The translations under genes and the position numbers were made by a program. Positions 16,385-18,698 of a DNA stretch of 64,000 bases are shown in pieces. The stretch is from Aquibaculum arenosum (GTDB lineage: Bacteria; Pseudomonadota; Alphaproteobacteria; Kiloniellales; DSM-21159), in contig NZ_JARHUD010000008.1 of assembly GCF_029222965.1 (NCBI RefSeq), positions 1-64,000 on the forward strand, read 5' to 3'. The notes under the pieces were generated by a model. The model saw nothing but the letters and a program-made list of their open reading frames with translations. It did no database searches and had not been told where the DNA came from. Within the stretch, counting starts at the first letter, position 1. The number at the start of each line of letters is the position of its first letter.

Positions 16385-17536
<1,152 letters not shown>

Positions 17537-17595: not shown

Positions 17596-17618
17596 CTGAG
17601 ATCGAATAGGGAATCAGA

Positions 17619-17726
17619 CACAAAGGTCGCAAAGAATAGCACGAAGTGCACAAAGATTATTTCCTCAACCACCTACCAACTGGATGAGACTTCGTGAACT
17701 TCGTGAAACCCTTGGTGTCCTTCGTG
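17619..17726. repeat. paired 37-nt inverted repeats built from CRCRAAG-type heptamers
   Basis: The left element, 17619-17655, has four heptamers (CACAAAG, CGCAAAG, CACGAAG, CACAAAG) spaced 2, 5 and 2 bases apart. The right element, 17690-17726, reads CTTCGTG, CTTCGTG, CTTGGTG, CTTCGTG with the same 2-5-2 spacing, so it is the reverse complement of the same design. A 34-base spacer lies between. The block fills the gap between the ilv terminator and the Usp gene and codes for nothing visible. Heptad repeats of this type are known in intergenic DNA of many bacteria, but their role is not settled. Confidence 0.75.
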
Positions 17727-17754
17727 TCGAAACGCCCCGTCTCAACCGTTCACG

Positions 17755-18597
17755 TCAGTGCGACATAAGCAGGGGGACGGTCATGTTGCGGAGCAGGGTG
17801 TGGGTGACGCCGCCCATGATCAGTTCGCGCATACGCGAGTGGCCGTAGGCGCCCAACACCATCAGGTCGGTACCCTGATCCGCCGCGCGAGAGAGCATCA
17901 GATCGGCCACTTCGACCTCGCGGCTCACCACATGCTGAGCCTCGGCCTTGACGCCGTGGCGCGCGAGCGAGAGCGCAATGTCCGCACCCGGTTCTTCGCC
18001 GTGTCCGCCGATCCCCCGCTTGGGGTTGACGCAGAGCACCCGCACCGCATCGGCGCGCTTCAGGAAGGGCAGCGCGTCACTGGCGGCGCGCGCGGCTTCA
18101 CGGCTGCCGTCCCAGCCCAGGGTGATCTGCCGGCCGAAGCCCTCCGGCGCGCCGATGTAGGGCACCATGAGCACCGGACGCCCCACGCTGAGCAACGTTT
18201 CCTCGGTGAGTGACGAGGGCAAGGACTCCTCATCATCCTCATCCTGCTGCCCCAGGATCACCAGGTCCGAGTAGCGCCCGTGCAGTGCAATGACATCGGG
18301 GATCTCATCCAGGAAGGCGGCCTGGCGGCGGCTTTCCACCGTCACGCCGGCCTTGCGCGCGGCCTCCTCGAAGGACCCGATGGCCTCCTCGGCGCGCTCG
18401 CGTCGCAGGTTAAGCTGCATGGTGCGCACCTCCTCGCCGAGCTGCGCCTCGATGAAACTGGGCACACTGAGCTCCGGGCTGACATAGAGGCCTACGAGAT
18501 GGGCATCGAAGCGCTGTGCCAGCTCCAGGGCCGCAGCCACACGCTTTTGGCAGGCCCTGGTGGTGTCGAGTTGCACCAGCAGATTCTTGTAACCCAT
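17755..18597 (-). CDS. tandem-domain universal stress protein (UspA family)
   Basis: A 280-residue cytoplasmic protein with two Usp domains, about 1-140 and 150-280. The second has the ATP-binding pattern LGAYGHSRMRELIMGG followed by THTLL. The first has an acidic, degenerate loop (GQQDEDDEESLPSS) where that motif should be, so probably only one half binds nucleotide. The start at 18597 (MGYKNLLVQLD) follows AAGGAG at good spacing; upstream in-frame codons are not part of the fold. It stands alone on the minus strand. Confidence 0.85.
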   Translation of the reverse strand: MGYKNLLVQLDTTRACQKRVAAALELAQRFDAHLVGLYVSPELSVPSFIEAQLGEEVRTMQLNLRRERAEEAIGSFEEAARKAGVTVESRRQAAFLDEIPDVIALHGRYSDLVILGQQDEDDEESLPSSLTEETLLSVGRPVLMVPYIGAPEGFGRQITLGWDGSREAARAASDALPFLKRADAVRVLCVNPKRGIGGHGEEPGADIALSLARHGVKAEAQHVVSREVEVADLMLSRAADQGTDLMVLGAYGHSRMRELIMGGVTHTLLRNMTVPLLMSH

Positions 18598-18698
18598 TGT
18601 TGCGCTCCTTGCGGTGAGATGCCCGACGCTTTCCGCGTCGCTGTCGATGATCACTGATCCTAGCTACTGCAGTTGCAGACTGCACCCCTTGACTCAAA

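Follow-up and report, generated by a model that had tools for sequence, protein, structure and literature searches.

Introduction

REP sequences and REPINs are short, intergenic, palindromic repeats, dispersed and non-autonomous, and a lone nuclease-type gene (RAYT, TnpA-REP, a Y1 HUH enzyme) is found flanked by them. Homing endonuclease genes include some that encode PD-(D/E)XK enzymes. For the hupL MITE of Thiomargarita nelsonii, derivation from a PD-(D/E)XK-encoding element has been proposed, with "transposases" of the PD-(D/E)XK_2 type (PF12784, YhgA/Rpn type; PMC4853749).

The element described here lies in the first 64,000 nucleotides of Aquibaculum arenosum contig NZ_JARHUD010000008.1, the whole of which we call the window. 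It is a palindrome built of iterated heptamers, and we conclude that it probably belongs to an element family partnered by a gene of the GxxExxY family, as a non-autonomous, MITE/REP-like copy that lacks the gene.

The element in the window

A preliminary description of this DNA had reported two 37-nt halves, each of four heptamers with 2-5-2 spacing, inverted and 34 nt apart, and the window sequence bears this out. The A arm (17619-17655, plus strand) consists of CACAAAG, CGCAAAG, CACGAAG and CACAAAG with the spacers gt, aatag and tg; the B arm (17690-17726, minus strand) consists of CACGAAG, CACCAAG, CACGAAG and CACGAAG with the spacers ga, ggttt and tt. The arms face inward, and the 34-nt middle between them (17656-17689) can be aligned in part with the middles of three other copies. 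The A arm has no mismatch to the CRCRAAG array pattern and the B arm has one, the heptamer type given earlier being right for seven of the eight and departed from by CACCAAG in the B arm. Since the repeated copies run two bases further on each side, to GACAC...GTGTC, we take the whole gene-less element, A arm then B arm, to span 17617-17728 on the plus strand (112 nt); six further copies in the genome can be aligned with it. The phasing that had also been suggested finds no support in the helical sense, the start-to-start steps being 9-12-9 here and mostly 8-10 around GxxExxY genes elsewhere.

The element sits where it had been placed, between the terminator-like hairpin 3' of ilvC (ketol-acid reductoisomerase; 16517-17536, plus strand; NF004017, 1.4e-171) on its left and a stress gene on its right, which encodes a Usp-domain protein (17755-18654, minus strand; PF00582, 8e-20; start codon uncertain). 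Both neighbours are given as context only, and the Usp gene appears to be incidental to the element. Pairs of heptamers with at most one mismatch match seven times in the window against 0.60 expected, four of the seven inside the element, and none of 100 window shuffles reached seven. Short, bounded by inverted terminal repeats in the form of inward arrays and without a gene of its own, the 112-nt element is in these respects like a MITE.

Copies in the Aquibaculum arenosum genome

When the 3.49-Mb genome was searched with the four-heptamer pattern, allowing up to three mismatches, 11 arm matches were found against none for a reversed control pattern. These matches make up seven elements on five contigs: C28, which holds the window, C1, C24, C27 (two) and C6 (two). 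Every copy pairs an A arm with a B arm; since the spacers tell the two apart, the element can be assigned a polarity, which is identical in all seven. In the alignment, four copies have middles of 34-40 nt and the other three have only a few bases there; no target-site duplication is visible at any of the seven.

The neighbours of the copies are ilvC and the Usp gene; thiD and sodB; a metal-ATPase gene; a NusG-like and an AadA-like gene; genes for an ABC protein and a sulfate permease; and a GxxExxY gene near acs and AOX genes. Those supported by Pfam are unrelated to one another, and no element lies within them; some elements are, however, overlapped by mechanically called ORFs, and the GxxExxY ORF, taken at its longest, begins within the element that precedes it. 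The AadA-like nucleotidyltransferase ORF (L022:3514-4284; PF13427) stands at a distance of 170 nt from one copy. A mobile repeat unit had been proposed for the palindrome, and the seven copies at sites with unrelated neighbours argue for it, as do the gene-less pairs of like plan in other genomes and the presence or absence of the element at one Geothrix site that are described below. A RAYT was rejected as the partner because PF01797 (Y1_Tnp), the profile of the REP/RAYT partner, has no match in this genome.

Between the arms of six of the copies, 140 of 168 heptamer positions are identical (83%) against 18 of 54 spacer positions (33%), in a comparison that omitted copy C6a, which has a deletion, and in which the B arm of C27a has a shift. 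Because the heptamers are conserved between arms and the spacers are not, the binding array of the preliminary description is a plausible reading of the putative heptamer sites, and the same contrast favours the heptamers as putative protein-binding units over a plain hairpin. That description had also looked to other copies and to conservation in relatives; the copies exist, but the array pattern (up to three mismatches) occurred in only one of 58 genomes, the element's own, and in none of the 57 relatives, one of them congeneric. In the congeneric genome the matches to ilvC and to usp are not adjacent but on separate contigs, and there is consequently no clean empty site for the window copy.

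The GxxExxY gene and its predicted product

The two copies on C6 flank an ORF, L024:4404-4928, that is the only GxxExxY match in the genome and scores above the cut-offs of both family profiles (TIGR04256, 139.1 bits, cut-off 35, 7.9e-41; PF13366, PDDEXK_3, 135.5, cut-off 22, 1.4e-39). On each side of the gene there is a complete element, not a single arm, and hence the gene-less copies have ends in common with a gene-bearing element of the same genome, as MITEs do.

GxxExxY proteins are small (roughly 120-140 aa) and carry an intact set of motifs. In 71 sequences, D64, E74, K76 and Q88 (L049 numbering) are invariant and Y92 is nearly so, a pattern that fits D...ExK plus QxxxY, the latter being the motif of RecB/Cas4-like nucleases. 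Compared with solved structures, the L024 protein has no sequence relative at E values up to 1. The structure model, a confident one (pLDDT 95.2, pTM 0.87), found no Foldseek match at E ≤ 0.001, the best being SSO0001 (a Cas4; E 5.2e-3) and lambda exonuclease; in VIA-align the best match was 4ic1_G (Z 9.8, rmsd 3.3, 97 residues aligned), and three of 1,000 chains reached Z ≥ 8. The model has the core fold and the D...(D/E)xK residues of the PD-(D/E)XK group, and GxxExxY proteins are accordingly predicted to be nucleases with the PD-(D/E)XK fold.

Arrays around GxxExxY genes in other genomes

Our main set comprised 92 loci, the best 80 of 510 GxxExxY relatives and 12 matches among the relatives of the window genome (its own included); with the best 80 of 510 taken, close relatives are over-represented. 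Unsupervised counts of 7-mers within 400 nt of 80 genes (the best 80 of 510), measured against parts more than 1,500 nt away and with one masked run set aside, recovered the motif CRCNRAG. The leading 7-mers near and far from these 80 genes were CGCAGAG (137 vs 38) and CACAAAG (107 vs 42), followed by ACAAAGG and CACGAAG (82 vs 49) and then by CACCAAG, CGCAAAG and CACAGAG. Counting as an array any run of two or more CRCNRAG heptamers whose steps are 8-12, we found one within 150 nt at 83 of the 89 testable main-set loci (best 80 of 510 plus 12); among the 89, inward-facing arrays stood upstream at 71, downstream at 63 and on both sides at 53, and an outward combination was seen at eight. Control ORFs from the same loci (249, with windows beginning at ORF starts where those of the test loci begin at profile starts) had any array in 23 cases and an inward pair in two. 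Among 18 further loci from multi-copy genomes, ten had an array and eight an inward pair. No CRCNRAG array by this rule was present at six of the 89 main-set loci (best 80 of 510 plus 12) or at eight of the further 18, and most of those inspected by eye show other iterated motifs. On deep branches (L031, L131, L136 and L143-L146), GxxExxY is flanked, by eye, by CACGGAT, CACAGAT, CACGAAT, CGCAGATTA and the like.

At the 51 inward-pair loci measured, the median unit length is 472 nt, mostly with three heptamers per side. Similar arrays bracket GxxExxY genes in many bacteria and some archaea, and the architecture recurs in distant phyla: the 78 loci with a named phylum fall into 19 phyla by their record titles, many of them metagenome bins. 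A phage or plasmid vehicle was rejected, as GxxExxY was found in seven of 72,556 plasmids, none of 50,697 phages and at one locus among viral contigs; that locus (L285), found independently of arrays, has arrays on both sides. Among the open-access papers searched, the passages that name GxxExxY do not mention flanking repeats, and none of the papers contains any of 12 array strings; print at large may differ.

The arrays at the two ends of a unit match each other in type. At the 54 main-set loci with both arrays (best 80 of 510 plus 12), the ends agreed at 2.491 of three positions against 1.362 (sd 0.098) when shuffled, a value reached by none of 10,000 shuffles; position 5 agreed at 54 of 54 loci and position 2 at 48 of 54. 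At the 38 loci with arrays of equal make-up, 16 with unequal arrays being left out, the variable heptamer positions agreed in 282 of 333 cases and the spacers in 68 of 121. On a tree of 110 proteins, which resolves poorly, leaving 57 of its 107 inner branches open, position 5 required six changes against a shuffled mean of 29.4 and minimum of 23 (92 rows, 300 shuffles), position 2 required 15 (mean 30.0, minimum 23), position 4 required 25 (mean 32.9, minimum 27) and host phylum required 37 (mean 54.8, minimum 50). With shuffling confined within phyla, position 5 needed four changes against a mean of 14.6 (none of 500 as low) and position 2 needed 13 against 20.1 (one of 500). To judge from these sequences, array type follows the GxxExxY protein tree, also within host phyla, and this match points to GxxExxY as the probable binder.

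Presence, absence and dispersal in Geothrix

At a site before pyrG, both flanks are readable in 27 of 31 Geothrix genomes: 13 are gene-bearing, another 13 are empty, their flanks lying 8-31 nt apart, and the last is gene-less. The gene-less pair (L172, genome G095) is 195 nt long and of another heptamer type, CGCAGAG; the relatives of G095 carry CACCAAG/CGCCAAG units at this site. Among the gene-bearing units, L160 has no right array in the stretch examined and L161 is shortened. No target-site duplication was seen at the pyrG site. On the tree of the flanks the three states need at least six changes against a shuffled mean of 10.0 and minimum of six (500 shuffles), so that gain and loss recur, with a modest signal relative to shuffling.

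A search of the 31 Geothrix genomes with the pattern CRCCAAGNCRCCAAG gave 1,200 matches against four for its control. The GxxExxY gene is present in 26 of the 31, with 2-114 array matches in these and 0-12 in the five that lack the gene; array and gene numbers correlate (rho 0.58, p 0.0007, uncorrected for kinship). When 20 regions were picked from genome G060, 19 proved to be gene-less pairs 56-82 nt long, whose arms are nearly identical and whose middles vary, and the remaining one a 1,053-nt array pair holding a DUF4268 gene. In this pair (L275:804-1856, on C6 of G060), arrays of like type surround a gene matching PF14088, not GxxExxY.

A model for the element

How might such an element spread? 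A full unit, typically about 470 bp, would consist of a single GxxExxY gene with an inward-facing array of CRCNRAG or its relatives at each end. The arrays would most likely be recognition sites of the GxxExxY protein, a predicted nuclease: once bound to the heptamers, it would cut within or close to the array-bearing ends, after which the unit and gene-less pairs could be copied or moved to new sites, either by transposition or by repair-driven, homing-like copying. It would be GxxExxY that moved the window copy. The footing of the model is the repeat family itself, the association of genes with arrays, the match in type between ends and protein, presence and absence at one site, and the fold prediction.

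Alternative explanations

The alternative that best withstands the evidence, though we think it rather unlikely, is that the arrays are an independent REP- or MITE-like repeat moved by another enzyme or by host repair, with GxxExxY and DUF4268 as cargo that uses or tolerates the repeats. The DUF4268 gene inside a like array pair and the preponderance of gene-less pairs in the regions picked from G060 fit it; the arrays of some Geothrix genomes without the gene (up to 12 matches) count against our own reading. Array-rich genomes without a GxxExxY match also fit the alternative, as seen in a sample of 337 genomes of the class. Here the GxxExxY gene was found in 17 genomes and a loose array pattern in 48, the latter count being contaminated by GC-rich coding repeats; the loose pattern also misses the A. 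arenosum genome, because of the 9-12-9 spacing. Five class genomes had four or more loose-pattern matches, and two of the five had the gene, a weak association (Fisher p 0.02) for which the cut-off of four was chosen after the counts were seen. The other three (G191, G402 and G283) are array-rich without a GxxExxY match, and G191 is 100% complete with 34 matches. Gene-less pairs in array-rich class genomes resemble that of the window. The loci examined in G191 (L207-L216) are mostly tight inverted pairs, in a genome with neither a GxxExxY nor a Y1_Tnp match. Against an independent repeat stands the observation that array type follows GxxExxY phylogeny within phyla. In addition, L275 is the only one of 58 gene-bearing pairs examined that was judged to lack a GxxExxY sequence, although nearly all of these loci were fetched through the gene, and PF01797, absent from the A. 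arenosum genome (G000), G191, G245 and G060, is yet present in G402, G283 and G185.

It is highly unlikely that the element is a regulatory operator, its iterated sites bound by a transcription factor or a nucleoid protein. Its conserved heptamers and free spacers do resemble protein-binding sites, but the neighbours of the seven copies have no evident theme, the pattern is missing from all 57 relatives and the element is missing at the pyrG site in 13 of 27 Geothrix genomes.

We give even less credence to the element being mainly a hairpin, whether a transcription terminator, an attenuator or a structured RNA. The element strand does fold better than shuffles with DNA parameters (z -3.05, with three of 200 shuffles as good); however, identity of 33% in the spacers against 83% in the heptamers means that pairing in the stem is not conserved as such, and ilvC already has a terminator-like hairpin 3' of it. 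The hairpin as the conserved unit was rejected on account of those spacers, and a known RNA family was rejected because none of 13 listed Rfam matches to the element reached the gathering score.

Chance or low-complexity repetition can be dismissed, for while short degenerate heptamers arise randomly and the loose pattern did catch GC-rich coding repeats, it is refuted by the reversed-pattern control in the A. arenosum genome (11 vs 0) and the control in the 31 Geothrix genomes (1,200 vs 4).

Comparison with known systems

Returning to a GxxExxY-partnered family as our preferred reading, we suggest that array-bracketed GxxExxY units are a little-known kind of mobile DNA, and there is a real chance that they form a class of their own. 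More tentatively, and as a possibility we would not yet bet on, GxxExxY proteins may be the enzymes of a distinct class of minimal mobile elements that bacteria and archaea share. A compact PD-(D/E)XK nuclease of RecB/Cas4-like kind would recognize the heptamer arrays, the motif would diversify in step with the protein (CRCAAG, CRCGAG and CRCRRAT-like branches), and such palindromic repeats of environmental genomes, that of the window included, would be gene-less offspring. For a widespread, uncharacterized family, the association offers a likely partner in DNA and a role open to testing; for the dispersed palindromes, it offers a candidate enzyme that is not one of the usual transposases. The covariation of array type with protein makes a direct test of recognition feasible, by swaps of motif type.

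By analogy, the window element most likely works like a MITE or a REP; we do not place it in either group, since the REP partner is absent and target duplications were not seen. Like REP/RAYT systems, the family consists of dispersed palindromic repeats that also flank a lone nuclease-type gene, but here the partner is a PD-(D/E)XK protein and not an HUH enzyme, and the ends are iterated heptamers. As with MITEs and their parent insertion sequences, the same ends occur on the gene-less copies and on a gene-bearing unit of the genome; by contrast, no target-site duplication was seen, the ends are arrays of short direct repeats, and no DDE or HUH enzyme was identified. The hupL MITE is likewise tied to a PD-(D/E)XK-encoding element, but it has 10-bp direct and 19-bp inverted repeats instead of heptamer arrays (PMC4853749). 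The PF12784 "transposases" are, moreover, a different protein family from GxxExxY. With homing endonuclease genes the units share a small nuclease gene adjoining presumed recognition sites, and presence or absence at a site, whereas here there are many dispersed sites and gene-less copies, and no host intron or intein was seen. As to the GxxExxY/PDDEXK_3 family (TIGR04256, PF13366), the gene that the unit carries clearly belongs to it.
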